Below, one piece after another: positions 3,385 to 38,955 of a stretch of 64,000 nt of DNA. Position 1 is the first letter of the stretch, and each line of letters begins with the position of its first letter. A program made the translations under genes and the position numbers. The DNA comes from a secondary endosymbiont of Heteropsylla cubana (GTDB lineage Bacteria > Pseudomonadota > Gammaproteobacteria > Enterobacterales > Enterobacteriaceae): NCBI RefSeq assembly GCF_000287355.1, contig NC_018420.1:1-64000 (forward strand), written 5' to 3'. Below the pieces are notes generated by a model. It was given only the letters and a program-made list of their open reading frames with translations. It was not told the origin of the DNA and ran no database searches.

Positions 3385-3810
3385 CTATTTTTTTTGAAAT
3401 TCAAGGGATTTACAAATTTCACTAAAATTTTTTAACTGTATTTCAGATAGAGGTGAAAAAATACGATCTAAAATAACTTTATGGATCTCTTCCGCAAGAC
3501 TTAGTTTTTCAAGTCCTTTCTGTGTAATATGAACATACTTCACCCGTCTATCTGTTGGACTTTGCTTTCTCTGTAACATTTCCTCTTTTTCTAAAGCATC
3601 GAGAACTGTTACCACCGTTCTAGATGAAAAACCCATATAATTTTTAATATCAGTTGCACTGGTTTTTCCAGTAATGATTAATTGTAAAATTTTCATTTTT
3701 GACATGGAAAGACCTTCATTTACCAACTGGCCATTTACTTCTTTTCTCAGGCGATGGTAAATACGTGACAGAGACTCTACCATGATAGACACGTTAGTTA
3801 ATTTATCCAT
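3385..3810 (-). CDS. MarR-family transcriptional regulator
   Basis: This 141 aa protein has the size and order of a MarR/SlyA winged helix-turn-helix dimer. It has an N-terminal dimerisation helix (about 5-30), a helix-turn-helix around residues 48-75, and a wing with the typical D-R-R pattern (T86-D87-R88-R89) before a beta strand, then C-terminal dimerisation helices. It does not align well enough with E. coli SlyA, MarR or HosA to be named. The ATG at 3810 is preceded by a good ribosome binding site (GGAGA about 8 nt upstream), which supports an active gene. It stands alone: about 0.6 kb of desert on one side and 2 kb on the other, with no target gene adjacent. Retention of a small-molecule-responsive regulator is unusual in so reduced a genome. 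Confidence 0.85.
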   Translation of the reverse strand: MDKLTNVSIMVESLSRIYHRLRKEVNGQLVNEGLSMSKMKILQLIITGKTSATDIKNYMGFSSRTVVTVLDALEKEEMLQRKQSPTDRRVKYVHITQKGLEKLSLAEEIHKVILDRIFSPLSEIQLKNFSEICKSLEFQKK

Positions 3811-5815: not shown

Positions 5816-7552
5816 TTAATATTTTAATTTATTTAACAAGTTTATATGATAATAATAATAACGTTTACGCTGTTTCATTAAACTTTGATGAGTTCCTTCT
5901 TCGATAATGGAGCCTTCATCTAAAATATAAATACGATCTAAATTTTCTAGACCCTGCAAACGATGAGTGACAATAATAAGAGTTCTTCCTTTTCCAACTG
6001 TAAAAATTAGTTTCAGTATTTGATGCTCACTTACAGAATCTAAACCTTCAGTTGGTTCATCAAAAAGCCACAAAGGGGAATCATGCAACAATGCCCTCGC
6101 AATACCAATCCGACGCTCTTCTCCACCAGAAAGAGCTCGACCACCTTCGCCTAACCACATATTGAGCCCTTCACCTTTAAGTAGTTTCCCCAAACCAACT
6201 TTCATCAAAATAGCGCTTAATTGTTCATCGTTAGCATCTGGCGCTGCAAGACGTAAATTATCACGTAGTGTAGCACTAAAAATATGAAGGCGCTGTTCAA
6301 CTACCGACGTCATCTTACGTAAAGCGCTTTCACTCCATTGATCAAGAGAAATATCACTTAACAAAATTTCTCCATTTTGGGGATTACAAGCTCGAGTTAA
6401 TAATTTTAATAGAGTAGATTTTCCACTTCCAGTATGACCGAGGATAGCAACATGTTCTCCCGAAGAAACCTTTAGTGTTAAATTATTAATAGAAGGGACT
6501 AATTTTCCTGGATAGGAAAATCGCACTTGATGAAATCTAAGAGAAACATTTGAAACCACCGAAGGACCAAAAATTGGAAAAACAATCTCGACTGGTTTTT
6601 GCATAAGATTATTTAGACGCATAGCGCAAGCAATAACTTCTCCAAGATGTTGGAATGCAACTGCTATTGGACTCAACGCTTCAAACACTGACAGTGTTGC
6701 AAAAACAAAAATCGCTATTAGAGGAGAAGATAAGATATTGTTTTTCTCAGACGCAATCCATAATACCCAAGTTAATGTTAGACCTGTCAATATTAAAAGT
6801 AAATTTTGTGAAGCAGCGCTCAGTTCGCTTTGTCGGCGCTGTTGAATCTGCCAACGCTGTTCCGTAATCTCTAATAAACTAAGATAATATCCAGAAGCAC
6901 CGTATAAGGTAAGCTCTGCGTTACCCAAAAGCCAAGTAGTAAACTGTAAACGATACTCAGATCGAAGAGTGCTCAGTGCTTCACCAACAGGTTTACCAAC
7001 ACAATAAAACCCTACAGGAAAAATAAGTAAAATTAATATCATGATCATTCCAAAAATTAACCCTACCTGTAGATCTAAAAAACAAAGACTTATAGTTACT
7101 ATCAATATAATTACTAATGCACTTACTAAGGGGGATATAAGTCGAAGATAAATATGATCTAATGTGTCTACATCTGAGACGAGACAATTGAGCAGTTCCC
7201 CTCGGAACAAGCGAATATTAGTAGTAGAAGTTGAAATTGGAAAAATGCTTTTAAAAACATAAAGACGAAGATACTGCAAAAGATGGAATGTGGCATTATG
7301 GCTAACTACCCGCTCAACCCAGCGCCCAACGGTACGAATAATTGCTGCACCACGCACACCTGCAGCAGGTAGCATATAGTTAAAAGTATAAAGACCAGCT
7401 GCTCCTGCTATTGCTGTACCCGAAAGAAACCACCCGGAAAGGATCAAAAGAAAGCTGCTAGCTAATAAGCTAATAATAGCCAATAGAATTCCAAGCAATA
7501 ATTGTCCACGATGAAGCCTATAAAGGCGCAAATAAGGAAATAACGCACGCAT
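5816..7552 (-). CDS. cydC: CydC, ABC transporter subunit for cytochrome bd assembly
   Basis: CydC pairs with CydD in an inner-membrane ABC transporter needed to assemble cytochrome bd oxidase; glutathione/cysteine export and haem loading have both been proposed. The protein is 578 aa (E. coli 573) and starts MRALFPYLRLYRLHRG, like E. coli. The N-terminal half holds six membrane segments, including the conserved FNYMLPAAGVRGAAI stretch. The nucleotide-binding half has Walker A GHTGSGKST at 372-380, the signature LSGGEERR near 475 and Walker B with DEPT near 497-501. The gene lies 20 nt after cydD on the same strand and is surely co-transcribed. All ATPase motifs are intact, so cytochrome bd is probably still made. 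Confidence 0.96.
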   Translation of the reverse strand: MRALFPYLRLYRLHRGQLLLGILLAIISLLASSFLLILSGWFLSGTAIAGAAGLYTFNYMLPAAGVRGAAIIRTVGRWVERVVSHNATFHLLQYLRLYVFKSIFPISTSTTNIRLFRGELLNCLVSDVDTLDHIYLRLISPLVSALVIILIVTISLCFLDLQVGLIFGMIMILILLIFPVGFYCVGKPVGEALSTLRSEYRLQFTTWLLGNAELTLYGASGYYLSLLEITEQRWQIQQRRQSELSAASQNLLLILTGLTLTWVLWIASEKNNILSSPLIAIFVFATLSVFEALSPIAVAFQHLGEVIACAMRLNNLMQKPVEIVFPIFGPSVVSNVSLRFHQVRFSYPGKLVPSINNLTLKVSSGEHVAILGHTGSGKSTLLKLLTRACNPQNGEILLSDISLDQWSESALRKMTSVVEQRLHIFSATLRDNLRLAAPDANDEQLSAILMKVGLGKLLKGEGLNMWLGEGGRALSGGEERRIGIARALLHDSPLWLFDEPTEGLDSVSEHQILKLIFTVGKGRTLIIVTHRLQGLENLDRIYILDEGSIIEEGTHQSLMKQRKRYYYYHINLLNKLKY

Positions 7553-7572
7553 ACTAAATAGCCATCCTGTAT

Positions 7573-9324
7573 TTAAGAAGAAATAAAAGCAGCTAACGGT
7601 CCTTCTCTAGATGAGAGCTCTTTATAAGTCCCTTGTTGAACTATCTTCCCATCGTCCATCACCCAAATCAAATCAAAATCTGTAATAACTTGTAACTGAT
7701 GAGTAATAAACAATGTGGTCTGACGACGCATAGCAGGATCCAGTGCACGCATAATCAATTTTTCACTAAGAGCATCAAGACTGGCAGTTGGCTCATCAAG
7801 GAGAAGCAAGTCTGGAGTGCGAATAAGAGCACGAGCTAAAGCAACACGTTGCACTTGACCTACAGAAAGCAATTTAGCATCTTCTCCGATCTTAGTGTCT
7901 AGTCCATCAGATAAAACAGATAAAAACTCTTTTATATAAGTAACATTAACGACTTTCATTAATTGTGCATGATTTGCTTGTGGTGCTCCGAGCAATATAT
8001 TCTCACGTAATGTTGATGCCGGCAAGATAGGATTCTGACTGATCCAACTCAAACGTTTACGCCATAAGTTAAGTTCAAGCGTACGTAATTCTTTACCATT
8101 AATTAAAATTGAGCCGCTGTAAGGTAAAAAACCTAATAGTACCCTAAAAATTGAACTCTTTCCTGATCCACTAATACCAACAATTGCTACTCTCTGACCC
8201 GCAGACACAGAAAAATTTAATGGACCTACAAGTATGCTTCCATCTGGAGATAATATGCATAGATTATTAGCAACTAAACTCACCAATCCAGGATTCAGTA
8301 CCTCTTTTCCGATTCCTTGAAATTGATCTTCATTATTTTCTAAAAAAGAGACTAAGGATTCAGCAGCTCCTAATGCACGAGCTTTAGCATGGTAAAACAT
8401 CCCTAGATCACGTAAAGGCTGAAAAAATTCCGGAGCTAAAATCAATATTAAAAAACCAGAGAAAAGTGTAACTGCGCTTCCATAAGTGCCGAAGTTAAAT
8501 TCTCCGAGGTAGGAAAAACCAAAATAAACTGCTACTAACGCAATAGAAATAGAAGAAAAAAATTCTAACACTCCAGAAGATAAAAATGCAATCTGTAATA
8601 CCTCCATAGTACGCTGACGAAACAAGTCAGTCGCACGAGCTAACTCTTGCATTTCTACTTCGGCGCGAAAAAAAAGACGCAAAGTATTAAGTCCACGCAA
8701 TCGGTCGAGAAAGTAACCAGAAAGACGCGAAAGTGCTAAAAAATTACGTCGATTAGCTTCAGCAGCCCCCATACCAACTAATGCCATGAAGATAGGAATA
8801 AGCGGGGCAGTTAAAAAAAGTATTATACCAGCAACCCAATTCATAAAAAAAGTTACAATCAACATCATCAACGGTATCATCACCGCAAGAGATAATTGAG
8901 GTAAATAACGAGCATAAAACTCTTGCATATCTTCAACTTGTTCAAGCAACATGCAGCTCCAACTGCCAGAGGGCTGATTATGAATCCACGCGGGACCCAA
9001 TCGAGCAAGTCGATCTAGCAATTGAACTCGAATGTGGCGCCGAAGAAGAGCCCCCGCAATAAAACCTACTTGTTCACGCGCATAATTAATTAATGCACGT
9101 AAAATAAAAAACAAAGCTAAGAAAAAAAAATTTCTTATCAGTATTATTCGAGGTATTTTATCTATAATAAATGATTGAAGTAAACCTGCTAGCATCCAAG
9201 CTTGCCCGATAATCATCGTGGCACTTATCAATCCAAGTAAAAGAGAAAGATGAAGATAACCTTGCGTTTGTTTACTTTGCAAACGAAGCCAACATAGAAG
9301 AGTATGTTGCCGATTTTTATTCAT
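7573..9324 (-). CDS. cydD: CydD, ABC transporter subunit for cytochrome bd assembly
   Basis: CydD is the partner half-transporter of CydC. I place the start at the ATG at 9324, giving MNKNRQ, which aligns with E. coli MNKSRQ and yields 583 aa (E. coli 588). The frame stays open to a TTG at 9345, which would add seven residues without support. The membrane half contains the near-invariant GMGAAEANRRNFLALSRLSG segment. The ATPase half has Walker A GISGSGKSS at about 383-391, a variant signature LSVGQVQR and Walker B LLLLDEPT. It is the first gene of a two-gene cydDC operon. The ancestral upstream neighbour trxB and downstream aat are gone. No strong ribosome binding site is visible. Confidence 0.95.
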   Translation of the reverse strand: MNKNRQHTLLCWLRLQSKQTQGYLHLSLLLGLISATMIIGQAWMLAGLLQSFIIDKIPRIILIRNFFFLALFFILRALINYAREQVGFIAGALLRRHIRVQLLDRLARLGPAWIHNQPSGSWSCMLLEQVEDMQEFYARYLPQLSLAVMIPLMMLIVTFFMNWVAGIILFLTAPLIPIFMALVGMGAAEANRRNFLALSRLSGYFLDRLRGLNTLRLFFRAEVEMQELARATDLFRQRTMEVLQIAFLSSGVLEFFSSISIALVAVYFGFSYLGEFNFGTYGSAVTLFSGFLILILAPEFFQPLRDLGMFYHAKARALGAAESLVSFLENNEDQFQGIGKEVLNPGLVSLVANNLCILSPDGSILVGPLNFSVSAGQRVAIVGISGSGKSSIFRVLLGFLPYSGSILINGKELRTLELNLWRKRLSWISQNPILPASTLRENILLGAPQANHAQLMKVVNVTYIKEFLSVLSDGLDTKIGEDAKLLSVGQVQRVALARALIRTPDLLLLDEPTASLDALSEKLIMRALDPAMRRQTTLFITHQLQVITDFDLIWVMDDGKIVQQGTYKELSSREGPLAAFISS

Positions 9325-11208
9325 TCTAAGTGTTTTTCTAGCCAAAGCGGCAGATACCTGATATTGAGATTTTACGAAAAAAAAGAAATCGAGATTAGTT
9401 TTTAAGCTAATCCGATAGGATTACATTAATTTTTAACATTCAATTATAGTTAAAATTTTTTTCTATAAACTAGGTTACATTCGAGATGCAATTAACATTT
9501 AACCAGATCAAACATAAATCTAGATAGATGTTAACATTAACTTTTTATTTTGCAATGTAATAAACTGTAGAGTAAACTTAAATTTATATTTAAAATGGCA
9601 AACTATTTTTCTCATGTCAAGCTCTAGATTTTATTTAATTATGTAGTTATTAAAGCATGTGCTATAAAACATTTTATTAAAAATAATATTGTCATACTGA
9701 CTATGTAAGTCAACAAACATTTTTAATTGTATCTTTCTTAAATTAGATATTCTATGGCAAAAAAAATACCATACTCTTCTCATAGAAAAATTGATCGAAA
9801 TTAAATTAAATCTTTATTAAATATTGCTAATAATGTTGTTTATAAGTAATTTATAATTCTATATCTTTTAGTAAATTAATACTAGAATTTACATTCCATT
9901 GACTCACAACAAATATAGAAAATCTCCATTAACAATATTAAGTTTAAATTTTGGAAATCTTTATTAGTAAGTTTTAATGAAAAATTTCCTCGCTAAGCCT
10001 AAAAAAACTATTACTCATCACAGGATCTAGTTTTTTAAAAACTGATATATTTTATCTAATTTCACTAGATTTAATTTAAACCACATCATGTGTATTTTAC
10101 ATTAATAAACAAAATAGATGTATTTTCTGATTAATAGTTTTATTGTTATTTTATTAAAATGCAGTATATTTATTGAATATGCATAAGTAATTATGTTAAC
10201 GTTAATAAAAAATTAAAACTCAGTTACCCATAAGCGCAGATGATGAGTCACTAAAAAATCATTTGATATACTGTAGTCACTATATTTATACTTAAATATA
10301 GTTTATTCCTATAATCTTTATACAAAATTATAAATTCTTAATTTTTTTGAAGTTACTTATCTACCTTTATTTTGATCTACACAAACCATTAAATATGCAA
10401 TATCAAATAGATATACGTATTTTCAACTTTATGTAATAATTTTAATGGAATCGTGATTGACAAATCATCTGATTATCTTAATCTTAATAGATTCAGAATG
10501 AAAATCAAAAAAAAAATTAACTCCCTTATATACTCTTAAATATAGTCGTTTCAAATAGCAATTAATCGTTCAATCGAAAATTTAATAAATATAAAAATAT
10601 TTAAAAATTTTAAATTATTGGTAATATTTCGAAAAAGAAAATGTTTAACTACTATTTTGTATCAAAAATATCGCCCTAACAACTTAACTCTTAAGGTAAA
10701 AATATAACTGATACTAAAGATCCGCCCTACATGATAAATTACAATCAGACGAAAATTAAAAATACTGTAAATAACAATATTGAAAATATTAAATTTTGTT
10801 TGCACATTGAGCAATGATGACTAGAATAGTTTGTATCTAAATAAGAAAAATGTAAATATTTTAATCAAGTTCATCCGACCATCCCTAATCCTAAGTAGAT
10901 AAAACTATAAACACTATTATTTTTAATAAACTTTGATTTCAAAGAGTATAAAAAATCTACTTTATCTTTATTATCAATCTATTAAAATCATCTTATCAGT
11001 TAAGATTATATTTTTAAAGATTTTTGAAAATATAGAGGAATAATTACACGATATAATCCTATTAAAAATAATCAATATGTTTAATAGATTAAAACAAATC
11101 AAAAAAACTTTACCTGAATATTCAAAGTAGAGAAATCTTTTTCGTTAAAAAAATACATTAAGTTTTCTAGATAACTCAAAGATCTCAATTGAAGGTAATA
11201 AAAATATT
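9325..11208. other. Gene desert between cydD and folK, possible panB remains
   Basis: About 1.9 kb without a gene. In relatives panB and panC follow folK on this strand. Reading the minus strand, short islands near 10890 (LGMV-like, from TTAGGGATGGTC) and near 10661-10672 (ATATTTTTG followed by ATACAAA) resemble the PanB GDSLGM and NIFGGYK segments in the right order. The evidence is weak and the spacing imperfect. Nothing else was recognised. Confidence 0.4.
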
Positions 11209-18659: not shown

Positions 18660-18666
18660 GAAAAAC

Positions 18667-18686
18667 ACCACTTAAGATTAGGTGGT
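18667..18686 (+). terminator. Probable rho-independent terminator of aspS
   Basis: ACCAC (18667-18671) and GTGGT (18682-18686) form a short stem followed at once by TTTTA, only a few bases after the aspS stop codon. The stem is short (5 bp), but its position right after the gene and its T tract fit a terminator worn down by AT drift. Confidence 0.5.
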
Positions 18687-19482
18687 TTTACAACTTATAA
18701 AAACGTTATGTTTCATTTGTTAAAAATATTTTGTCTTGTGAATAAATTATTAATACTCAAAAGGCTATCAAATCATAACTATTCATTAGTTATCAAATTT
18801 ATAGAAATTATTAAAATACTTGAAAAACTCGAGTTAAAGATATTGCCTTGGCCAACTTTAACCTGATTTTAAAGAATCAAAATTTATAATATAATACAAT
18901 ATTAATATTAGCATTGTCTAATAAACTATATCTATTAAAGTATTCGGACTATAAGATTAATAAAATTGCACTTTTTTAGAAAGATCGCCAATAATATTAT
19001 AAAACCAGTTTTTACTTAAGTAAAATATAAAACATTTCAGTAAAATAAGATGTAAAAATTTATTTTTTATAAATCTTGACAATCGATCTATAATCGCGTC
19101 TAAGATTCATTAAATAAATTAAAATCTTGTACAGAGATAAAATATTAATAAATCTAATGTAACTTTAATGTCTAATATCTATATCATGTGTGAAACATGA
19201 CATCTGTGTCTACCAATCTCATAACACTTTTTTTAAAATTATCGTTTAATGAGTCAATAACTTTTCCATTAAAAGAAAAGTAAGACTAAATAAAACTCTA
19301 AAGTAACTTTAGAAAAACATATAAAATAATTAACGACAACATATGCCTTTTTATTTGAAAAATAAATACAAATAATATAAATTATAATAATTAATATTTA
19401 ATTATATTTACCATTTTACTTGCATCAAGTATAAAAATATATATATTTCGATTAAGAAAATAAGGTAGTTAACATAAAAAAG

Positions 19483-19514
19483 TAAAAAGATATCATAATT
19501 ATGATATCTTTTTA
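19483..19514. terminator. Perfect 14 bp palindrome, bidirectional terminator-like
   Basis: TAAAAAGATATCAT (19483-19496) and ATGATATCTTTTTA (19501-19514) are exact reverse complements around the loop AATT. Both strands read A-rich arm, stem, T-rich arm, like a bidirectional rho-independent terminator. It lies about 220 nt past the 3' end of the leftward tRNA-Ser gene and about 820 nt past aspS, so it could end the tRNA transcript. Such a long perfect stem is unlikely to persist by chance in decaying DNA. Confidence 0.5.
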
Positions 19515-19734
19515 TCTATTAATCATATGTAATTAAAAGTTTTTCATATACCAAGGAATGAGATCTAAAAATTAGATGTTTAAAACAATCAATAAGCAAT
19601 ATAGATATTATATGTATATTTTTAAATATATTTTATTTTTTTTTTTAAATTTTTATAATCCTATTTATGTTCGATAGATGCTTTTTTAAGAATATTTTAT
19701 ATATTTATTTAATAAGTATCACTTATCCACATTA

Positions 19735-19822
19735 TGGCGGAGGAGGTGGGATTCGAACCCACGAAAGGTAACCCTTCGCCGGTTTTCAAGACCGGTGCCT
19801 TCAACCACTCGACCACTCCTCC
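19735..19822 (-). tRNA. serT: tRNA-Ser (anticodon UGA)
   Basis: The minus strand folds into a class II (long variable arm) tRNA of 88 nt with encoded CCA. The acceptor GGAGGAG pairs with CTCCTCC. The D arm has GTC..GGC with a G-U pair. The anticodon stem is CCGGT/ACCGG with loop CTTGAAA, giving anticodon TGA. The variable arm (CGAAGG..CCTTTCG) forms a stem with one bulge, and the T arm is GTGGG TTCGAAT CCCAC. It closely resembles E. coli tRNA-Ser(UGA), encoded by serT, which reads UCA and related Ser codons. A consensus sigma-70 promoter lies 11 nt upstream. It is a single gene, not part of a tRNA cluster. Confidence 0.97.
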
Positions 19823-19833
19823 ATAATAAATGC

Positions 19834-19862
19834 ACTATAAACAGTGTTTATTTGCTTGTAAA
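19834..19862 (-). promoter_or_regulatory. Sigma-70 promoter of tRNA-Ser
   Basis: On the minus strand TTTACA (19862-19857) and TATAGT (19839-19834) are separated by exactly 17 bp, one mismatch from each consensus hexamer. The tRNA begins 11 nt after the -10 box, leaving a 5' leader of only a few bases. Position, spacing and match make this the clearest promoter in the window. Confidence 0.8.
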
Positions 19863-22631
19863 GCTCACCTTTAAATTTTTTATTAAAAATATCTATGATT
19901 ATCTAATATTTTTTTATTAAATCAAATTTTTATTAACTAATTATTGATATGTTTGAACACTGTTCACCACTTTTGGTGATCTTTTTATCACCTTGTTCTT
20001 AGAAAGAAAAATTTTTAATAAATATTTTATTTTTATATAAATTTTTTATTATTGTAGACTAATTGGTTATTAGTATAAATAAAAAACACCTATTTTCTCT
20101 CCAAAAAAAAAGGAAACTAACACTATTAAATTCATACAAAAAGCTAAATAAAAATTATTTTTTTTTAACGCATAAAAAAAATATATCTAAATAATGCAAA
20201 AAAAACAAACGATCATTCAATTCATTTATTTGAGCATGAATATGACAACTGATTCGAATGCTCAACGAACTAAAAAATTTTAGTTATTAAACATTAAGCA
20301 GTTATTAACTAAGCATTATTAACTAAGTATATTTATATAAAACTTTTATATTTTTGGTAAAAACAAATTTTAATATTTTTAATAGAATTCAAGATTCAAT
20401 TAAAATCCTAAATTTATAGATATAAAATATAAGAAACATAACACTTTATTAGTAATAACCTTACAACTAATACACTGAACACTATGAATATAATATTCAG
20501 ACACTTAAAATGAATTATCAATGATTACATACGGGTTTAATCAAGTAATCTATATCCAATGTTTATCAAAACAAAACTTACTAACAAGCATTCTCTGATC
20601 TATTTAAAATAGGACATAATTTAAAAATCTTTTAGATCAAATTTTATTTTATACGATATAAGTATCTAAATATTTTTATGATCCACCTAATATCCTGGAT
20701 TATTTTTGCCATATTTTTTATTAAAACAAGTAATAAAACTTACCAATAATTCTTTATATTTAATAACAATTTAAAAAAAAGACTATTATTAATGAGCTTT
20801 ACAGACTATACTATTTTCTACTAGATTCTAGTTTCACATGAAATTTGAATTAAATGATAAGTATTTTGATAAATATATAAACTATAAATTTTAATCATAT
20901 TAAAAAGAATATATTAAATTTATTTTTTCTTTCAATAATATTTTTATATTACTCCATAATAACACCTGAATCGAGCATCTAATATGCAAAGTCTTCTATC
21001 TAGACTCAGAATCTCTATATTTAATAAGACAATTGCCTGTTATCAAACAAAGCTATTAAATCATTAAGTTGTTATCGATGCGATTTAATTGGCAATTTTC
21101 AACTTTATTATATTCTTTTTCACACTTAAACAATGCATAATATAACAAAAAAGTAATCTATATCAGGCTGTTTATTAAAAATCTTTACCAATCTAAACTT
21201 CTTATGTAAAGAAAAACATGAAGAACGGAACATAAATAGAAGATTATTCTCTTATAAATTAATATTTTATTAAAACCTTTATTAAGAAATTATGATACAG
21301 GCAAGGTAAAAACACTGTACTTTTATTCTCACTCTTACTGGTTACAAGAGCTCAAATTTCTAAAATCGAAGAAAATGACTTTTTCTTATAATCACTTTGA
21401 TAAAAAATGATTTTACAGCAAGGTTTTAAAAAACTTTATTATTTCTCTATTAAATTACAGAAAAAAGATAAACTGAAAAATTCAATATCTTTAATATAAA
21501 AAATAAATATTGTATAATAAAACGATCAGCAAGACAATGTTAAAGAAATGTCTATTAATTTTTATGGGGAAGGTATATTAAGATATTAGAAATAATAACT
21601 GCTTACCACTAAATGTAAAAAATTTTAGATCTTGTTTTCTTTAAATTACTTCTAATATTTCTCGTCTTTATAATAGTATTGCTTTTATCTTTAACAATAT
21701 GAAATTTATATTTTTATATAGAAAAGTCTACTTTTCAATAAAACGAAATAAAAAATCTAACGATTATCACTCAATATTAACAATGAACAATTTAGTTTCT
21801 TTAAATATTGCTATATTTTTAATACAAAAATATTTTGAATCCGATTCAACTATGTTTAATTATAGTGAAATAATATTAAAACAAAGATCTATTAATAATT
21901 TTCAAATTTTTATTTTCATAAAATAAAAATAAATTTTTTATAAAAATTAATCTAGCTATTAACTTTATTAGTCATCATTATTAATAATAAATATGTTATA
22001 ATAAATGACTTTATTATTTATAATAATTAGTTATGTTTGTTTTTTTTATTAGAAAATTTTTGTACTCCAATTCACAAAGAAAATAATAAAACTTAATATT
22101 TAAACATCTACCCTAAGGTAAGAGCGTACATACTTGCTTATCCTTAAACTAACTAGAAATGTCAAGAAAAAGAAATAAAGATTAAGAATAATTAAACTAT
22201 AACCGAAATATATAGACAACAAATACCATTAACTTAATATACGTAAAATACCGTTTTTATAAATAAACCGTTCTAGTCAATAAAATTTGCTAAAGAAGCT
22301 ATATGTTTATTAAAAATCTTTATTAAAAAACCTATATTTCATAGTAAATATACTATATCATTTATAAATAAAAAAATATACAATCGTGTTAGCAATAAAG
22401 CTACTAAAAAAAACAATATTCTTTGAAATTTTGAAGAATGTGTAAATTATTTTAAAATAAATCTGCTTAATAGCATGTTATTTCTTCTATCAATTTTCTT
22501 AGAACTATGAGAATTTATTACTATAAAATTATAAAAAAATAATTTTTTAGTAATAAATTTTAGATAATCAACCCTTTTAATTCTCTAGATTGACTAAATA
22601 TCAAATATATTTATCATGAATATAAATAACT
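19863..22631. other. Gene desert between tRNA-Ser and dapF pseudogene
   Basis: About 2.8 kb without a gene. In relatives yigA (DUF484), xerC and yigB follow dapF on this strand; I searched for XerC tyrosine-recombinase motifs and found none convincing. A stem-loop TTGAGCAT/ATGCTCAA (20230-20265) and a 75-codon AT-rich open frame at 21699-21926 (Lys/Ile/Asn/Phe-rich, no recognisable family) are the only items seen. I regard the frame as chance. Confidence 0.6.
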
Positions 22632-23434
22632 TCAGCTCTTATGGAGAGAACATACTTAAATCCCACTCCGACTAAATAGCACCATCGAGCACCTATCAGT
22701 TTTATTTCTATACGATCTGCTTCTAAACGCCAACTCCTAGAAAATTCCTACCACAACCGTAATGCAAACTCCGATATAACAAAAACTGATATTCATTTCA
22801 ACTCCCCACATTTATAAATCCGAAAATAAATATGATTTCCTATTAAAATATAAATAATATTGACATTAGCTCTTTCTTAAAAACTTTTATAATTCTCTAA
22901 AAATGAACCCAACATTTTGATTAAAACATTATCTATGAATCTATCTACACAAATTAGATAATGCAGGTCATTAAGATAAGCAATGATAAAGCGAAAAATA
23001 TTTTGATCCTCATACATAATACATTTTTTAATATGCTCTTTATAAGAGAAACACTTTTTATTCGTAAAAATACAATTTACCCATATTAATTTATGTTATA
23101 TCGACTGTTATTGTACTTAATATTATACGTCGCTTTTTTTTTGTATTGTTCTAAACTTTACATTTTTTATTAAATTTTTTATCTGAATAACCCAAAAAAA
23201 AACAACGAACACTATCACCTAACTTCCTCGTTTCATGGCCATAAGGGTTAAAAACACGATAATGAAAATCTAACTCCAAATCATAGGTTGATTCTACTAA
23301 CTGCCAACACGAAAGCCCTACTTCGCAACGTCTATCTGATAGACGGGAAATCATTCTAGATAAAAATATTTTAGATTATACGATCTACGATCATAGAATC
23401 ATTTTTAAACCGTTTATTATAGAGATTCCTATAT
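22632..23434 (-). pseudogene. dapF: Diaminopimelate epimerase, decayed full-length pseudogene
   Basis: DapF converts LL- to meso-diaminopimelate for lysine and peptidoglycan. This is a fossil nearly the length of the intact gene (about 803 nt; E. coli 825). In order on the minus strand one can read: remains of the start near 23434; NDSMIVDRII then a stop (E. coli NDFMVVDAVT); an open piece 23354-23151 with ISRLSDRRCEVG and YDLELDFHYRVFN (E. coli IRRLADRHLGVG and YDPELDFHYRIFN); INMGKLYF (VNMGEPNF); then LHYLICVDRFID, LGSFLENYKSF, a stop and ERANVNI (PHCVIQVDDVD, LGPVLESHERF, ERANIGF); and a C-terminal RIEIKLIG (RLDIAWKG). Many stops and frameshifts, and both catalytic Cys contexts are gone. 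It lies downstream of lptM as in E. coli. Confidence 0.88.
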
Positions 23435-23564
23435 TCCTACTTCACATTAACATCTTATAATATAGAGAGCACCTCTAATACGAAAAAGTCAACTCTCGAT
23501 TAAAACTGTTTTCTTATAATCTCTTAAGTTATGTTTTTTAATAAAATAGCCAAAAAAATTATTA

Positions 23565-23708
23565 TTAACGTAACAAAGGTGCAGATGTTATTTCATGCTT
23601 TTGCATACTTTGGTTGGGAGAGGGAAAGTAAAGTGGACCTTTTAAACCACAACCAGAAATTCCAAAAAGGATTAATCCAAACCCTATAAGACTTAATTCA
23701 CTTTTCAT
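23565..23708 (-). CDS. lptM: LPS-assembly-associated lipoprotein LptM (YifL)
   Basis: This 47-codon gene encodes a small outer-membrane lipoprotein. The start MKSELSLIGFGLILFGISGC is a lipoprotein signal peptide with the lipobox ending G-C (Cys20), followed by GLKGPLYFP, the hallmark of LptM/YifL (E. coli GCGLKGPLYFPP). In E. coli LptM binds the LptD-LptE translocon and helps LptD mature with correct disulfides. The protein is shorter than E. coli (67 aa): the Pro/Thr/Gln-rich tail is reduced, but the conserved head is complete. GGAAAGG lies upstream of the ATG at a long spacing. Its old operon partner dapF, immediately downstream, is dead, so lptM has been kept for its own sake. It implies that LptD and LPS export are retained. 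Confidence 0.85.
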   Translation of the reverse strand: MKSELSLIGFGLILFGISGCGLKGPLYFPSPNQSMQKHEITSAPLLR

Positions 23709-24799
23709 GCTATTTACTTACCTTTCCTGTTTCTTACTCTATCTTGAATTCCCATCATTTTAGTTAGCATAACAACAATATCATCAATGATATTTTGATC
23801 AAAAAAAAAACAATTAAACAAATTATAAACATACAGTTAAAAAGATGTTTAGTCATAATAAGTATTAAATATTATCTACCTTAACATTATCAAGATATGC
23901 TATTTGTTGAATAACGGCATTAAATATAAACAAGAAAAATTACAAAATAATGCAATATTGAATACTTCTATTATAATTGATAATATTCTAACACATTTAT
24001 TAAATTAATTTTAAAAAAACAAACTTATTAGATGTAAAAGTTTAAATATTGATTAAAATTAATAAACTATTTTCTATTTATTTTTTGAGACTTTAATAAA
24101 GTTAAACTCAATATCTAGATGTAGACAATCAAACGATTAACTCTATATCTAAGCAAACAAATTCCATTTAGTTCTTCTATTAGATATTTCACTGAAAAAT
24201 TAACATACTTTTATTTAAGAGTCCACAAACTTAAACTCCAAAAAAAATTTTGATACGTGTTAAATGAGAAATAATTAATATCAAACTGAACATAAGTTCA
24301 ATCCTGATATCCTCAATATTGTATATCTTCTAAAATTACTTCTTAGATCTTTAGAAAAAACTAAACAATAAAAATTAGTAATACAATTACTATTATACTT
24401 TATATTATTAACATAATGATAAATTTTATTTATTAATATTTACATATAAGTTGACATAATAAATCTTTAACTAAATTATATCTTTTATACATACAACATA
24501 ATAGTTGTTTATCCAAAACAAATATATATTATATGCGCTGCTTTCGTTAGAATAATTAATAAACATTGAATGTAGATTCAATCATCTGTTATACAACACA
24601 ATCTAATTAATGAAGTGTTACTACTAAAAATCTTAAATCGTATATACGACTTTTAAAAATGAGCCTCTCAGCGTTCTTGAAAACATAATGATATATATAT
24701 TCTATTAAATTTTCAAACAACTTTTATAAACTTTTATTTTAAAAGAAAAAACTTTTTATGTAAAAATTTTTATATAATTTATTAAATTAAAAAAAATCA

Positions 24800-25235
24800 C
24801 TAATCTTTATCGAGGTCATGCAATAAAAATATCGAAGAAAGTAGGGCATGCAACGACGAGAATCATTGTGTTATTTTTTATTGCTCATAGTTCAGTGTAA
24901 GGATACTATTATAAAATTCTAATAGTGCGATTTTTTTAAATGTACCTTTTAAAACAATGATTTTTTACTTTTATACAACTTAAAAAATATTTTGATTTCA
25001 ATTTTAGCTCCCTGATAAGAAATATATCGTCATTTATAACAAGGTGAGTTTATTTGTAATTCATAAAAAATTTTATATTAACACTTCAGTAATCTGCACA
25101 ATATTTTAAAAAACCATATATTTATATTATATCTGTAGCAATTTTTATCTAACTCGTAGGGCATACGCTCGATATCTAAAATAGAAATAGAATAATCCTT
25201 CCGATGAAATCTACTCTCTACTGGAGAATAACTCA
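24800..25235 (+). pseudogene. atpA: ATP synthase F1 alpha subunit, fossil core
   Basis: Four short segments on the plus strand match AtpA in the right order. First, TATCGAGGTCATGCAATAAA (from about 24811) matches the IGRGQREL segment before the P-loop. Second, TTAGCTCCCTGATAAG (about 25004) and GGTGAGTTTATTTG (25043) match LAPYAG and MGEYF. Third, TTATCTAACTCGTAGGGCAT (25145-25164), then ACGCTCGATATCT, match DLSKQAVAYRQIS with small deletions. Fourth, CCTTCCGATG and TCTACTGGAGA (25199-25229) match PGDVFY and LLER. The distance between the first and third anchors (about 330 nt) is what AtpA predicts. By extrapolation the original gene spanned roughly 24.3-25.9 kb. No frame is open. I identified it by eye, so the boundaries are approximate. 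Confidence 0.62.
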
Positions 25236-28200
25236 CCACCTATATAATTCTCATTATATAAGAATTATAATACTAACTATTATATCATATTTATAATCTG
25301 ATGTAATAAATTTAAATATACGATAAATATCATTTATCTACATTTTCTCCCAGATAACTTAAAATCATTGAATAATTCAATTCTACTAAATATGTTAATC
25401 AACAATATAAGTCTTAAAACTTTACTGTTATTCCTATCACCCATCCCATATATTCTATCTGCTATGTGCACTGAATTAATTACACCTGATTTATTTTTTT
25501 AATTACTAGATTAAAGATTTTGAAAGCAGCATATCTAATCATCTTATTTTAAGATATTCATTTATTTAACTAAGCAACACAATAAATTTTACTAGAATTA
25601 ATAAAAAACAGCACCACTTTATTAATATAAAATTAATGTTTTATATGGACGAAAAAAAATAAAGTGATGTTTATCATATAGTATATTTTAAAGGTTTATT
25701 TAATATAATTTAAATAGATAATATGTTTATAAAAAATCTAATCTAGATGGAAATCTAAAGACTACTATCGACTTAATAAAACACCTTTAGCATCATAGAT
25801 TAAGGTAGAATTAATAAAATAATTTACTTAATAGTAAAACTTAAATCTTGAATGTTAAAAGCTCTTAAAGAGAGATAGATTTGAGCACTTTAAAATAATT
25901 ATCGAAATCCATATACTACCAAATAGATATTTTATGGATTTTTTATATTATGTAGATAATTTTAATAACTATATGTAAATCCAGAAACAGTTTTATTAAA
26001 AAAATCTCACTCTTATACCGACATCACAAAAAAAAGTCTAAAATAAAATTATTTACATTTATACTATAAAGAACAATATACATTTATCTACAGGGAAGTG
26101 ATCAAAGTTTTAGGTAAAAAAATTAAAAAAAACTCTATCTTATTACGATAACAATAGATAATTAGCAAACATTTCATAAAAAATAGCAATATAACATGTT
26201 AAATTATTGTACCTTAACTTTCTTTCCCTTGTAAAAAAAACAATTCTATGTTAATATTTACTTTTTACAAAAAAAAGACTTAAAAAAGTTGGAATCATTT
26301 ATTTTTTTATTTATAAACACACAGTTTCTTATTAACTTATATATTTGAAAATATGTGTATATTTTTTTATCTTAACAATAGATCTTACCATCACTACATC
26401 CCAACACCTTTTATAAAACAATTACTATTGCTTGAGCACTATCTTTAAGAATCAAAGTAACCTACGATTTTTTATTGCAAACAGTCTTAATTTATTCCAT
26501 AATTGCAATATTTCTGTTTAATATCATCAATGTTAAATCAAATAAAAACATATACATTACTATTATGTAATAATTTAACTATAAGCATTAAAAATATTAT
26601 CAAACATCATAACTAGATATAGTTTTTTTATAATGCAAATATACATTCTATCTCATTAGAAATATTTTACAACACGACAACCGTATTTTATGAACAACTA
26701 ATAATTTACCTAATCTTGTTTAATTAATTTTTTGTTTTTCTTATACCCTCTAGATAAATTATCACATCTTAATTCTTAAAAATTTCATTTATAATGATTA
26801 CTGGTATATCTTAAAGGCTAGCTTAATACTTATTCTTGAATTAATTTATTTTTATAAAATTATATTAATTTAAATAGGATGCAATCCTACTATTTATGTC
26901 TTCAGCTTCAACAAGAAGCAAAGACAACTTTTGCAGTATAGTAAATTATTTCTTTGTTTTAAGTTCAGGGTATTAATATATTATTTGATAGCACTGATTT
27001 ATATTGTAATAATATAGACAACGCTTAACAATCAAATCTATTGTCAAGTTAGAAAGAATTATTTAACGTTGTCATATTTTTCTCCTAAAGATGTGTATCT
27101 CTCTATGTTCAGAAACATTATAATTTCTATTGCCCTAACAAAAATTTTTTTATAAATTTCTGTAAAATTTTATCTATAAAAGATATAAAAAAATGGTTGG
27201 TGTTTAATTTTAATAAGTTGATTATTATCAAGATCAATATATTCTTCTGATATTCAAATAAAAACATTTTTATGCTTTCATATTGTGCTCAAGTTTTATA
27301 TATCCAAGTAAAATAATGCAATTATTTATATAGGTTTTAAATTGATGTTTAACTGTTTTAGATATTAATGCACTAAATTAGAGATTTTTTAAATACAACT
27401 AAATTTATTCTAAAATTTCATATTCATATTAAACTTAATATTACTCTATAAACATCGTAAGCTAACATATAAAAAATGTGAATAATTTTAACTATATTGA
27501 ACGAATTATTATAAAGAAGGCAGGTTAATATTGTTTAATTTATCTTAACCTAATGAGAAACATTTTATCTCTCTCCACCTCCTGATTTAAGAAAAATAAT
27601 GACATAGATAATCTTATTAATTACATTCTCTACACCTATATGTTAATTAAATCATATTAAAAATTATATTGCATAATAGTATTAAACTACGTAATATATA
27701 ATAAAAAAATCAAGTTCTGTTATATCAATAATTATTTTTTTTAATTCTATTATTATCAAAGAATATTTTTATGTTGACTTAAACATTCTTAATACATTTA
27801 CATTTTTCTCAATTATTATTTTAAATAAATATATGTGCATATACAAACATCATTTTACTTCTAAATAAATATATCTGACGATAAAATGGTTTATAAATAG
27901 CCTATTTTAGTTAGACCACAACCGATAAAGACTCTCAATCTTTAATAATATAAGTTAGTATAACTAATTATGATTAATCTCTTAATCATATAAACACGCA
28001 ACGTTTGCAAAAAAATATATATATCATATTTAAATATATATATATATTATACTATATTATAATAATATAGTCCATATTAAAATTCTATTTTTCCTATAAA
28101 TGTAGATAAATGAAAAAATAGAATCCTTATATAAACAAATCATTAAGAGATATTTGTATTTTATATTATATAAAAATAAAAAATAAAACTATTCATCTAT

Positions 28201-29967
28201 AAATAAAAATAAATGTAATAAAAACATCCTCACAATTAACAAACAACATAATACTACTTAACTAAAGCGAATAAGTTATTAGATATATAAAACGGTTTTA
28301 CTAATTTTTAGTATACTAAATTTATTCAACAAGAAAACAAAAGATTTTCTTTATAAAAAAAATTTAACGATAATTATTTTTTTCATTAAAATTTATAACT
28401 TTATAGCAAAGATATTTACAATTTTATTAAAAATTTACAAAGTTAAAAACTTTATAAATTCACTTAACTATAATAAATCAATGTCTTAAAAGAAATCTTT
28501 AGAACAATCTATCTTAATAATAAATGTATTGATTATATTAAATATAACTGATAGTTTTTCATATTTAAACATAAATCTATCTTTTATATTGTTATTATTA
28601 ATTCTTTATCTTGATCTTTCTTATTAAATTTTAATATACTATATTTATCTATGTTTTTTCAACATAATAAAACTTTAGTGAATCTTTAAATTAACAAATA
28701 ATTATCGCAAAATAAAAACAACTTTAATCAATATGTTAGATTTTCAAGCAGATAAAATTCAAAAACCTTATCATGTCTGTAATAACGAATTAAAATCTTT
28801 GATTTGTAATTAAGATTCAATGCAATTCAACATTAAATTATTACAATAAAATATTTTTATTTAAAATATTAAAACGCTAAACTTTAAAATAAAATTTCTT
28901 CATTAATTATATTAACTAAAAAAACAACATTATTTAATAATCAATTTAATACAACATATCTATAATTCTTATTTTCTAAAATAGGTATCAATATTGAGTA
29001 ATAATCTAAATAAAGACATAATATTTATATTAAAGTTCCATATCTATCTTCATAGAAAAAACTAAAGTTATTTGAAATCATCAATTAGAATAAACTACCT
29101 AGAAAAAAAATCACGAATACCCGAATTTCCTCTATAAACTTTTGTGACTAAATTAAAAATAATCTATTTCATTTTATTTCTTAACCATCATGTCAATTGT
29201 GCATTCATGTCTACTTTATATAATAAAATTCATTCAATAGACTAACAAAAGCATAAACAACTGTACTTGTAGTACTTTGATTATCTTTTCACGTATGAAA
29301 TAAAACAAATACGCTCATTTATTTTTCTATAAGATAAAAATGCAATATTAGATATGATTTAAATAATAAATTTCACTAAAAATTTTAAAAAACATCACTT
29401 ACATGACATAATAGAATCTACGAGAAATCAACTTCTTCTTATCAATCATAAATAATAAAAAATTATCTTGATTTAGCAAGATTATATACAACCATATTAA
29501 TTAATATACAACTATAATATGCAAATCGTAAAACCACACTTCTTATTTGTAGAAAAACTAAGATAAAGGGATGATAGACAAAAAAAAGGACTAGCATCTT
29601 GTTAATAATCAATCTAAATTAATTGAAACTAAATTACTAAATTTATTTACAATACAATCATTATACTATTGACTACCAGCAATGTCAGATCTAGTATATT
29701 TTTAATAAAAATCAAAGTTATTGAACTCAAAAAAAAAGAAAACTTTTCAACAAGTATTAATTTTATTACAGACTATTAATTAATAGAATTTTATACGATA
29801 AAAGATCAATCTCTTTCAAGATGAATATCTGATAGAAAGTAATCAAGTTTAATTAAAAAATTTTTACTAAAATAAAATCAGGAGTTATGGAGTTAGCAGC
29901 AACCTTATATTATCGCTAAAGAGGGTCTCCCCCCTATTAACATACATATATTGTATTTTCAATTTCT

Positions 29968-29976
29968 TGCTATAAT
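29968..29976 (+). promoter_or_regulatory. Extended -10 promoter upstream of glmU
   Basis: TGCTATAAT is a perfect extended -10 element (TGN-TATAAT). No strong -35 is present, as expected for that class. Transcription from about 29983 would give a 5' leader of about 135 nt before glmU. With the upstream ATP synthase operon eroded, glmUS needs its own promoter, and this is the best candidate. Confidence 0.5.
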
Positions 29977-30118
29977 ACTGTTTAATATTTTTATATTACA
30001 TAACCTCAACTTATGTAAATCGCTTATTCAAGATCCTTGAATAGCAGAATATATAGAAAAACCGCTGTAACTATCACTATTCTAATAATCTGATAAATAG
30101 GGTTCTATTAAGATAGTC

Positions 30119-31495
30119 ATGTCAAATAGAGCATTAAACGTAGTTATCCTTGCAGCAGGAAAGGGAAATCGTATGTTTTCTGATTTACCAAAAGTGCTGC
30201 ATCCTCTTGCAGGAAAAGCGATAGTGCAACATGTAATAGACACTGTTATCAAGCTTCATCCAGCTTATATTCATCTAGTCTACGGTCATGGTGGTGAGCT
30301 TTTGCGTAAACATTGTGCTAAACAAAGTGCACCTATAAATTTGGTGCTGCAACGTGAACAATTCGGCACTGGCCATGCCGTTCACCAAGCTTTAACCCAC
30401 CTGCAAGACAAAGAAACAGTTTTAATTCTTTACGGCGACGTACCTCTTATCTCTCTCGAAACACTGCAACGTCTACTTATAATACAACCTCCAGGGGGGA
30501 TTGGTCTAATCACAGTTACTCTTAATAACCCTGGAGGTTATGGCCGTATCTTGCGTGTTAATGGTGCAGTCACTGGCATTATTGAAGATCAAGATGCCAA
30601 TAAAGAACAAAAAAAAATAAAAGAAATAAATACTGGCATTCTTGTTGCTAATGCTAAAGACATTAAATCTTGGCTCAGCCGATTAACTAACAAGAATGCA
30701 CAAAACGAATTTTATTTAACAGACATGATTTCCATAGCCTGGAAAGAAGGTTGTAAAATTCATACAGTACAACCTAATCGAAAAACTGAAGTAGAAGGCG
30801 TAAATAATCGATTACAGCTTGCTAGACTAGAACGATGTTTTCAAAAAGAACAAGCAGAGCGACTACTATTAGCAGGTATAACCTTATCAGATCCTGATCG
30901 TTTCGATCTGCGCGGTGAATTACACCATGGTCGAGATGTGTTTATTGATCAAAATGTTATTCTAGAGGGAAAAATTACTTTAGGTGATCGAGTGATCATT
31001 GGAGCCGGATGCATTCTAAAAAATGTGTTGATAGGTGATGATGTGATCATAAAACCTTATACAATCATTGAAGGAACTCGAGTAGCGGCACGCAGTAGTC
31101 TCGGCCCTTTTTCTCATCTACGACCTAACAGTGAACTAGAAGAAGAGGTGCATATAGGAAACTTCGTAGAACTAAAACAAGTACGACTAGGTAAAGGCTC
31201 AAAAGCTGGTCATCTTAGCTATTTAGGAAACGCCGAAATTGGTGAAAAAGTTAATATTGGGGCTGGAACTATCACATGTAATTATGATGGAACCAATAAA
31301 CATAAAACTTGTATTGGGAACAATGTTTTCATTGGTTCTAATACCCAACTGATAGCACCGGTAACTATTGGCCACGGTGCTACTATAGGTGCATCTACCA
31401 CTGTCACACAAGATGTTTTAAAAGATGAAATGATTATCAGCCGCATACGTCAATTCCCTATACCTAACTGGAAACGACCCATTAAAAAAACATAA
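30119..31495 (+). CDS. glmU: Bifunctional GlcNAc-1-P uridyltransferase / GlcN-1-P acetyltransferase
   Basis: GlmU acetylates glucosamine-1-phosphate and then makes UDP-GlcNAc, the shared precursor of peptidoglycan and LPS. The protein is 458 aa (E. coli 456). The N-terminal pyrophosphorylase has LAAGKGNRM at 11-19, YGDVPLI near 105 and the EINTGI region. The C-terminal left-handed beta helix carries hexapeptide repeats from about residue 250, with catalytic H365 in KAGHLSYLG (E. coli H363), and [13 protein letters not shown]. The start is ATG, preceded only by a weak TAAGAT. glmS follows, as in E. coli. Both active sites are complete, so envelope precursor synthesis is retained. Confidence 0.98.
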
Positions 31496-31647
31496 AAAAA
31501 AGGGGGGGGGGAAATCATACCTTGATTACAGGTAGATTTCTAATCTTTCATGTTAATAAAAAAGAAAAAAACTGCTGTATGATGCAGCAATCAAATTTTT
31601 CTATCGCATCACAACACGTAACTTCCATTTAATCAGGGATAAATGAG
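31496..31647 (+). promoter_or_regulatory. glmU-glmS intercistronic region with A8-G10 tract
   Basis: The 152 nt spacer starts with a run of eight A (31494-31501) directly followed by ten G (31502-31511), extraordinary in DNA this AT-rich. A small hairpin TGCTG/CAGCA lies within about 31571-31590. In E. coli this spacer is cut by RNase E and pairs with the sRNA GlmZ to activate glmS. I cannot see a clear GlmZ site here. AGGGAT precedes the glmS ATG by about 8 nt. Confidence 0.45.
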
Positions 31648-33480
31648 ATGTGTGGAATAATAGGCGCAGTTGCGCAACGTAATGTTGTCGAAATTCTTTT
31701 AGAAGGATTACGTCGTCTTGAATACCGTGGATATGATTCTGCGGGAATAGCAGTTCTAGATAAAAACATGCACCTACAATGCCTACGCCGCGTAGGAAAA
31801 GTGAATAACTTAACCGATGCAGTAAATGCTAATCCATTATTCGGAAGTACTGGAATTGCCCATACCCGTTGGGCAACTCATGGAACAGCAACAGAAAGAA
31901 ATGCTCATCCACATATTTCCGGAAATATCGTTGCTGTTCATAATGGCATAATAGAAAATTATAAACTCTTACGTGAGCAACTTCGATCATGCGGTTATAC
32001 TTTTATCTCAGAAACTGATACAGAAGTCATCGCTCACCTGATTCATTGGGAGCAATCCCATACAAACGGTATACTTGTCGCGGTAATGCAACGAGTAGTC
32101 AGCTCCCTCCGTGGCACGTATGGGGCAGTTATAATGGATGCTAGAAATCCTAATGTATTAGTCGCAGCACGTTCTGGTAGTTCATTGGTTATCGGCCTAG
32201 GTGTTGGCGAAAACTTTTTAGCTTCCGATCAACTAGCGTTACTACCAATCACAAGACGCTTTATTTATCTTGAAGATGGTGATATTTCAGAGATAACTTG
32301 CCATACAGTTCAGATATGGAATAAGAATCACCAAATTGTACATCGACCAATAATCGAATCTGATATCAAATACAACTACGGAAATAAAGGGATTTTTCGG
32401 CATTACATGGAGAAAGAAATTTTTGAACAACCTGAAGCAATTACAAATGCTCTAGAAGGACGTGTCAAAAAAGGAAGAGTAATCCTTACAGAATTAAATG
32501 AAGATAAAAATGCAATATGGAAACAGCTAAAACATATACAAATTATTGCTTGCGGTTCATCTTATCATTCTGCAATGGTAGCCCGATACTGGTTCGAGTC
32601 GTTAGCTGGCATACCCTGTGATGTTGAAATTGCTTCTGAATTTCGTTATCGAAAAATCGTAGTCCGCCAAGGAAGTTTATTAATCAATCTATCTCAATCT
32701 GGCGAAACCGCTGATACACTCGCTGCTCTTCGATTAACAAAAACACTGGACTATCTCGGATCACTGGCTATTTGTAATGTTACAGATTCCTCTTTAGTTC
32801 GTGAATCAGATATAGCACTAATGACTCGGGCAGGACCCGAAATTGGCGTGGCTTCTACTAAAGCATTTACTACGCAACTGATAGTATTATTAATGCTGGT
32901 ATTACGTATTGGTCGCCTACGTGGTATGAGCAAATGGCTAGAATCAGATATTGTGAATGCACTACAAACATTACCGACCCATATTAAACATATACTTTCT
33001 TTATCTAAATCTATTCAAATTATAGCGGAAAGCTTCTTCGATAAAGAAAATGCCTTTTTTTTAGGTAGAGGCGAACTCTATCCTATTGCGATGGAAGGAG
33101 CGTTAAAATTAAAAGAAATATCTTATATCCATGCAGAAGCTTATGCTGCTGGAGAACTCAAGCACGGTCCACTGGCATTAATTGATGTTAATATGCCAGT
33201 TATTGTAATAGCACCAAACAATAAACTATTAAAAAAAGTAAAATCTAATATTGAGGAAATAAGTGCACGAGGTGCTCTATTATATATATTTTCAGATCAA
33301 AATGCTGGTTTTAGTCCAAAAAGAAATATGAAAGTTATATCTTTTCCAACTATAGCGCAGAGCGTAGCACCTATTTTTTATAGCATACCAATGCAACTAT
33401 TAGCTTATTATATCGCCCTAATTAAAGGAACTGATATTGATCACCCCCGAAACTTAGCTAAATCCGTAACAGTAGAATAA
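31648..33480 (+). CDS. glmS: Glutamine-fructose-6-phosphate aminotransferase (isomerizing)
   Basis: GlmS makes glucosamine-6-phosphate from fructose-6-phosphate and glutamine, the entry step to amino sugars. The protein is 610 aa (E. coli 609). The N-terminal glutaminase begins MCGIIGAV; the Cys after the initiator Met is the nucleophile, which fixes this start. Further motifs are the GYDSAGIAV region, THGxxxxxNAHPH and the oxyanion-hole region. Two SIS sugar-isomerase domains follow, with [27 protein letters not shown] and the ARG..DQNAG region. The C-terminus ends LAKSVTVE with the Schiff-base Lys K605. It is second in the glmUS operon. Confidence 0.98.
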
Positions 33481-37808: not shown

Positions 37809-38955
37809 AAAAAACTCCAGTTTTGCATACGCCATCTACAATCATTTCAAAACATTTCGATATTTTAACATATATGCATACATATACAGTTAAAGATTAT
37901 TAAATAAGAAGTATAATATACATAAAATGTAAATTTTATCTAGTTATATAACTACTCTTATTTAGTAAAGCATTGTTGAATCTCAGAAGAATAAGAATTT
38001 ATTTAAACGAAACAAAAATATAAAATAAATTTTTAGGAAAAGTAAATCTTTTAATCATCTATCTCAAATTAAAAATACCACACAAATACATTTTTATACA
38101 ATCAATATAAATTATTTAATAAAAATACATTAATGCTTATTGTATCTATAGTATTAATCATTTATTTCTAATTAACTTATATTTCTAAAACTGTATCATA
38201 GGATTTGTTAACGACATATAGAGTTTTTTCTCAAAAAAAAACGACACTTTCATATAAAACCAATTCACTTATACACACGCGCTTTAATTATTAAACCAGA
38301 TACCACTAAATTTATCTTAAATATTTTATTTATCAAAATAGATAATTTTTAAAAGTTTTAATCACGTCTGTTTTAAAGTATCTTTTTTAGCTCAAGGCGA
38401 ATTAGGTTCTTTCGAGATGCTATATTGTCTTTCGACCAATATTTGTTAATCTCAACATCTTCTTTATTAAAGAATCATAAAAATTTGTTGGGTGATTTAT
38501 AAAACAATATAATTACAAGAAATATTTACCATACTTATGGTAGCTCTTTAACTTCAACAACATTTTACTACCATATAAATTTAGACCTTGCTTCCCATGT
38601 TTCTCAACATTAGATTTCAAATCTAACATCTTATTAAGAGTTAATATTATTTTTATTAAAAACATACCTTTTTAAGTATACATAAATAACTTACATATAT
38701 TATATGAAACATTCATTGTAAATATAAAATGATTAATAATAATACTTAAAAAAATCGTATACACTATTTTGAATAAACTCTCTTATTTGTATATAAAACT
38801 CTTAATTGATAAAATCACTTTATAAAAAGTTGCTTTTATTTAAATTCTATGTTGTACATACAGAATGTTATAAAAAATTATATACACTAATAATTATAAT
38901 TGTCTATTACAACAAGTTGTTATAGCATAACAAAATATTCAAGGTTAAAGAAAAT
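37809..38955. other. Gene desert between rplU and hslU
   Basis: About 1.15 kb. In relatives ispB starts divergently from rplU, and menA lies beyond hslU. A single stretch near 38488-38502 (LLGD-like) could recall the IspB LVGDF motif, but the flanks do not fit and I do not claim it. A lone DnaA-box-like TTATACACA lies at 38269-38277. A small hairpin sits just after hslU. Confidence 0.55.
38917..38933 (-). terminator. Small hairpin just after hslU
   Basis: TTGTTAT and ATAACAA are exact reverse complements around the loop AGC, about 22 nt past the hslU stop. There is no following T tract on the minus strand, so at best this is a 3' end stabiliser or a degraded terminator. Confidence 0.3.

Follow-up and report, generated by a model that had tools for sequence, protein, structure and literature searches.

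The first 64 kb of contig NC_018420.1, referred to here as the window, contain cydC and cydD, the two genes of the CydDC transporter that serves cytochrome bd, within a genome in which we found no ATP synthase. That genome is a single contig of 1,121,596 bases and is 99.98% complete. An earlier reading of the window (the original prediction) had placed the pair at 5816-9324, and both genes are full length at exactly those coordinates:

cydC, 5816-7552, minus strand: intact, 578 amino acids (aa), ATP-binding cassette (ABC) transporter subunit for cytochrome bd maturation
cydD, 7573-9324, minus strand: intact, 583 aa, partner of CydC

Both assignments are secure at the level of protein families. 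CydC passes the NCBIfam equivalog PRK11160 (756 bits versus a cut-off of 630) and CydD passes PRK11174 (850.6 bits versus a cut-off of 684), with 55% identity to E. coli CydC spanning residues 1-573 of 573 and 57% identity to E. coli CydD spanning residues 1-582 of 588. Walker A, signature, Walker B and H-loop motifs are found in CydC and CydD alike, which bears out the earlier statement that their ATPase motifs are complete. The start of cydD lies at 9324, where Met1 of the E. coli protein aligns, and the TTG start at 9345 given in the open reading frame (ORF) list is therefore taken as an artefact. Stops make up ~8.5% of triplets within a decayed gap of the window (18660-30118, described below), and with the stop density taken from this gap the probability of 578 + 583 stop-free codons is ~1e-45, so the 1161 stop-free codons of cydC and cydD are not a product of chance. 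Compared with five relatives, cydD diverges by 0.24-0.30 at codon position 1, 0.13-0.17 at position 2 and 0.52-0.64 at position 3, and this pattern (third >> first > second) shows that the gene is under purifying selection.

CydDC has been described as a transporter of heme on which cytochrome bd depends, with His85 of CydC and His312 of CydD as the axial heme ligands in E. coli (PMC10374445). Here, CydC retains His85 together with R77, R81 and R136, and CydD retains His312 together with Y311, F195, R192, K3 and K314; the exception among the 11 heme-site or entry residues examined is K7 of CydD, which is replaced by histidine (10/11 retained), and Glu500 is retained too. The two subunits, the ATPase motifs and both histidines are common to this transporter and the E. 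coli one, the difference being that the transporter here sits in a cell where hemB and hemH were not found (PMC10374445 for the E. coli protein). Both axial histidines are also present in all ten cyd-bearing genomes compared, including G103 and G065, despite CydDC sequences in these two that are 23-34% identical to E. coli. The CydC and CydD of G103 (L073) and G065 (L075) possibly reflect very fast evolution or a distinct transporter lineage.

The original prediction had singled out cydAB, cyoABCD and nuo as genes to be sought in the rest of the genome. Cytochrome bd proved to be present and intact: cydA, cydB and cydX are all open at ~87.7-90.6 kb. In CydA, 12 of 12 residues held to be important at the heme and quinol sites are conserved, while CydX is identical to the E. 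coli protein at only 15 of 37 residues. No match was obtained genome-wide for COX1/cyoB (E ≤ 1e-20) or for nuoD, the 49-kDa subunit of complex I (E ≤ 0.001), which we took as stand-ins for the whole cyo and nuo complexes. The gene for NADH dehydrogenase II (ndh) is open, its product matching the E. coli enzyme at 58% identity across 434 residues, and this enzyme, Ndh-2, is reported to be non-pumping (PMC11137140). Searches of the genome for sdhA, glpD, dld, pyrD and gltA found none of them; one match resembling SdhA (33%) probably represents NadB, the aspartate oxidase. Enzyme I of the phosphotransferase system (ptsI), a pyruvate kinase (38% identity to PykF) and ackA were all found, none of them interrupted by stops. 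The respiratory chain predicted from this gene content starts at Ndh-2, ends at cytochrome bd and lacks oxidative phosphorylation.

A chain of this kind could serve chemistry other than energy conservation, with bd and CydDC removing oxygen or peroxide, balancing envelope thiols and playing little part in the proton-motive force. CydDC has been reported as an exporter of glutathione and cysteine (PMC4785604), and the non-pumping nature of Ndh-2 would also suit such a role. We nevertheless regard this as improbable, since the heme-ligand histidines found in 10/10 genomes favour heme handling over thiol export, though they leave room for oxygen removal by bd.

The loss of ATP synthase put forward in the original prediction was upheld by a genome-wide search, in which subunits a, c, alpha, beta, gamma and delta were not found and no intact enzyme came to light elsewhere. 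The queries for subunits a, c, gamma, alpha and delta hit their targets in the large-genome control G009; subunits b and epsilon were sought within the 64-kb window only and were not found there. One region, 559753-560364, matches the ATP-synthase nucleotide-binding family above cut-off (97.9 bits). As atpD it scores 28 bits versus 463, with 21% identity to E. coli AtpD, and we rejected it as the beta subunit; it is read as termination factor Rho because of its 423-aa frame and a similar match in most relatives. Within the window, the place that the atp operon occupies in E. coli, and in relatives whose stretch reached glmU, is taken by an 11.5-kb decayed gap next to glmU and glmS, the two genes that adjoin the operon in E. 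coli:

Decayed AT-rich gap, 18660-30118, no strand: 21% GC, immediately upstream of glmU, without any recognisable trace of atp genes
tRNA-Ser, 19735-19822, minus strand: inside the decayed gap
glmU and glmS, 30119-33480, plus strand: intact, 63% and 67% identity to E. coli

A fossil atpA had been reported in the window, and none of four approaches recovered it. Tblastn with E. coli atp queries, nine atp nucleotide profiles (atpI built from 9 sequences, the others from 15 each) and a motif scan for remnants yielded nothing clearly above chance in the window, the best profile match being atpH at E 0.065, within dnaA, and the best for atpA reaching E 1.8. The gap upstream of glmU was also searched by permissive tblastn, controlled by 20 first-order Markov shuffles; the best match was to atpG rather than atpA and only marginally better than the best shuffle (E 2.4e-5 versus 6.3e-5). 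This alignment, rich in lysine, asparagine and isoleucine, was rejected as an atp remnant because it contains many stops and comes from a single very AT-rich query without composition correction, and because the atpG nucleotide profile was matchless up to E 10. On these searches, the atp operon is judged to have been erased here past recognition. Traces of the operon do persist in two other genomes. In the cyd-bearing G144 (L064 1-9001, equal to G144:C1:632000-641000), all eight atp subunit genes can be recognised, with stops or frame breaks disrupting several of them, which we read as a recent loss of ATP synthase, at an earlier stage than here; G094 retains scraps of atpB, atpF, atpD and atpC between mnmG and glmU, likewise an earlier stage of loss.

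We think it reasonably probable that the cell runs a two-enzyme chain of Ndh-2 and bd, weakly coupled, which regenerates NAD+ and sustains a proton-motive force, with ATP made at substrate level and cofactors obtained from outside. In such a cell, NADH would be oxidised by Ndh-2, electrons would pass to quinone and oxygen would be reduced by CydABX, regenerating NAD+ for glycolysis. With no F1Fo enzyme, neither ATP could be drawn from the gradient nor a gradient from ATP, and bd would therefore be the likely main source of proton-motive force. CydDC would flip heme to the outer face and so allow CydAB to assemble, and ATP would come from substrate-level steps at pyruvate kinase and acetate kinase. 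Weak coupling would fit because the gradient has no large drain, a situation in which a strongly pumping chain would stall. The analysis demonstrates the gene content, the intact frames, the conserved residues and the selection on cydD, and from these we infer the host, the enzyme activities, the role in proton-motive force, the import of cofactors and the substrate-level ATP; a host-dependent lifestyle is probable, given the reduced genome and its relatives.

Much of this had been anticipated. The idea that respiration serves redox balance or proton-motive force rather than ATP synthesis gains from the presence of cydAB and the lack of any ATP synthase found, so that neither of the two contrary findings named in the original prediction turned up, and loses the fossil atpA that was offered in its support. 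Substrate-level ATP supply is likewise plausible from ptsI, pyruvate kinase and ackA. The intact pgl that had been cited for it, whose family assignment was confirmed by a protein-family search, was dropped as support because it is a pentose phosphate enzyme and makes no ATP. As for import of ATP, a TLC-type ATP/ADP translocase (PF03219) was matched in 0/20 genomes, but also in 0/14 controls.

Among genes for the cofactors of the proposed chain, genome-wide searches found none of hemB, hemH, ubiA, ubiB, ubiE, ubiG, ubiH, ispB, menA and menB, each of which was positive in control G009. In E. coli, ispB adjoins rplU and menA adjoins hslU; the corresponding interval of the window is a gap:

Gap between rplU and hslU, 37836-38955, no strand: 1.1 kb, no ispB or menA match

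Since no sought heme or quinone synthesis gene was found, both cofactors presumably come from outside, with the host or a co-symbiont as the presumed source. Among the ten cyd-bearing genomes searched, hemB was matched in none, hemH in four (G063, G104, G144 and G165) and ubiA in three (G063, G094 and G065, in the last as two pieces), and with matches this scarce, imported cofactors look common in the group.

The same gaps invite the view that the chain is a relic, disabled by the lack of quinone and heme synthesis and in the course of being lost. None of the ten synthesis genes was found, the 28 ORFs counted cover only ~46% of the window, and one relative, G187, has a broken cydA. We hold this to be unlikely, given the purifying selection on cydD described above, the retention of the listed catalytic and heme-ligand residues and the open frames of cydA, cydB, cydC, cydD and ndh. 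Moreover, G013 has no ubiB or ubiG match yet keeps atpD, cyoB and nuoD, so missing quinone synthesis need not mean a dead chain; its ubiA match is weak (24%, E 1.8e-6) and is probably cyoE. In G187 itself, cydA is split across overlapping frames with stops (G187:C1:36339-37822) and the cydD frame is open (582 aa); bd is apparently being lost in that genome, which lacks atpD and cyo. Elsewhere in the window, an intact MarR-type regulator stands isolated in a decayed stretch (3385-3810, minus strand), with no NCBIfam model above cut-off.

To place this genome in its family, we surveyed 392 family genomes drawn evenly from a larger group. At a threshold of E ≤ 1e-60, atpD was present in 357 and absent from 35 (20 listed outright and 15 deduced by elimination). 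The oxidases were then compared in a set of 71 genomes, consisting of these 35 and of 36 atpD-bearing genomes (≤ 2.0 Mb, one per genus), a set that left ~51 further reduced species with atpD, G196 among them, out of the cydA search. At E ≤ 1e-30, cydA was found in 15/71 genomes, all 15 of them among the 35 without atpD (0/36 with atpD), and COX1/cyoB at E ≤ 1e-20 was found in 35/36 genomes with atpD versus 15/35 without. The 15 include the broken cydA of G187 and the draft genome G143. Neither oxidase was found in six of the 35, and only G143 among the 71 has both. The distribution of nuoD was less sharp (31/36 versus 19/35). The membrane domain of CydD, sought in 68 genomes, followed cydA: it was present in 12/12 known cydA genomes and in 9/9 comparators (large genomes and outgroups), and in 0/36 atpD-bearing reduced genomes and 0/10 cyo-only or oxidase-less genomes, but it was also present in G196, which has atpD.

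Counting one genome per genus, cydA occurs in 10/19 genera without atpD versus 0/36 with it (Fisher p 3.2e-6, in a test that assumes independent genera, an assumption that does not hold fully). Removal of the present genome leaves 9/18 genera without atpD (p 9.1e-6). This count drops G143 (3.3 Mb in 110 contigs, with both oxidases and nuoD), whose missing atpD is probably an assembly gap, as well as G338 (190 contigs, the second species of a counted genus) and other congeners. Genus g64 was represented by the cyd-bearing G063, a choice that favours our interpretation; its congener G399 lacks atpD and keeps cyo, and putting G399 in its place gives 9/19 (p 1.5e-5). If G196 were counted, hypothetically, as an atpD genus with cydA, the comparison would become 10/19 versus 1/37 (p 2.3e-5). 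Genus g64 is itself mixed: G063 has lost atpD and kept cyd, G399 has lost atpD and kept cyo, and G196 and G343 have kept atpD.

Cytochrome bd oxidases have high oxygen affinity, and the oxidase could have been kept on that ground, in poorly oxygenated tissue or in another symbiont, with ATP synthase lost independently, for example through host metabolite supply. This account of a low-oxygen niche is possible but would surprise us. Taken alone, it leaves unexplained why cydA occurs in 0/36 and COX1/cyoB in 35/36 of the atpD-bearing reduced genomes, and the phylogeny also speaks against it. In an RpoB tree (FastTree, 61 sequences), the present genome belongs to a reduced-genome clade with 11 members (support 1.00), in which six with cyd and without atpD are interleaved with five that have cyo and atpD. 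Closest to it is G054 (support 0.93), a genome with both atpD and cyo. Read literally, the tree would require ATP synthase to have been lost 13 separate times, but supports within the clade run from 0.31 to 0.93, and long-branched genomes elsewhere in the tree may be misplaced.

More tentatively, and with the balance of our judgement slightly against it, the survey can be extended to a rule. In reduced genomes of the family, loss of ATP synthase may be a precondition for keeping bd and CydDC, giving two mutually exclusive packages (bo, usually with ATP synthase, and bd without it); in the present genome, heme and quinone would come wholly from outside, and CydDC would be retained as the final step of heme handling although the cell produces none itself.

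Several points count against the weakly coupled Ndh-2/bd chain and its extension to the family. The evidence is entirely genomic. The ten unfound quinone and heme synthesis genes mean that the chain could be starved. Among the 19 genera without atpD, seven have cyo in place of cyd and two have neither oxidase, so a genome that has lost ATP synthase need not settle on bd. Finally, the reduced genome G196 (0.85 Mb) has both atpD and cydD, with cydA sought only in 80 kb and not there, and the family rule may therefore have an exception:

cydC and cydD of G196, G196:C1 ~305634-309081 (L061 17635-19990, L062 6-1082): cydD frame open, 595 aa

The pattern is already published, and this genome is a further case that apparently widens it beyond what was described. 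In the Sodalis symbionts of Columbicola feather lice, loss of ATP synthase was tied to retention of cyd and loss of cyo, and ndh was retained where nuo was lost (PMC11137140); loss of ATP synthase, cyo and nuo with retention of ndh and cyd is all true here. The differences are that this genome is apparently a separate lineage, with no other genome labelled g1 in our surveys, and that its atp operon is erased past recognition. A GlmU scan of genome contigs gave seven distant loci (L008-L014) and nothing closely related, and Profftia was rejected as a candidate identity on the ground that it possesses ATP synthase (PMC8692619). In the louse-symbiont text (PMC11137140), 'heme' occurs 0 times, and its passages on the pattern do not discuss quinone or heme synthesis. 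Another parallel is the Moranella endobia consortium of mealybugs, which has no ATP synthase and depends instead on substrate-level phosphorylation, proposed there to run through ackA and pta; NAD+ is regenerated there by nuo, whereas here nuoD is absent and ndh was found (PMC3620526). In E. coli, ATPase-deficient mutants show more Ndh-2, cytochrome bd, glycolysis and acetate (PMC6861446, citing Noda 2006 and Jensen and Michelsen 1992). The two respiratory enzymes raised in those mutants are the ones retained here, although theirs is a regulatory response in a laboratory strain and not an altered gene content. Among the open-licence full texts searched, we found no paper on a link between cyd and ATP synthase across the whole family. 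What the present analysis adds is the family survey and the retention of CydDC without detected heme synthesis.

The contingency described for louse symbionts, in which ATP synthase is lost and a weakly coupled oxidase is kept, is thus suggested to hold in this genome too, and our small survey suggests the same contingency in about half of the family's genera without ATP synthase. The pattern parallels the physiology of E. coli after deletion of its ATPase. Respiration without ATP synthase becomes a testable question in these bacteria, and the presumed dependence on imported heme and quinone adds a puzzle of its own.

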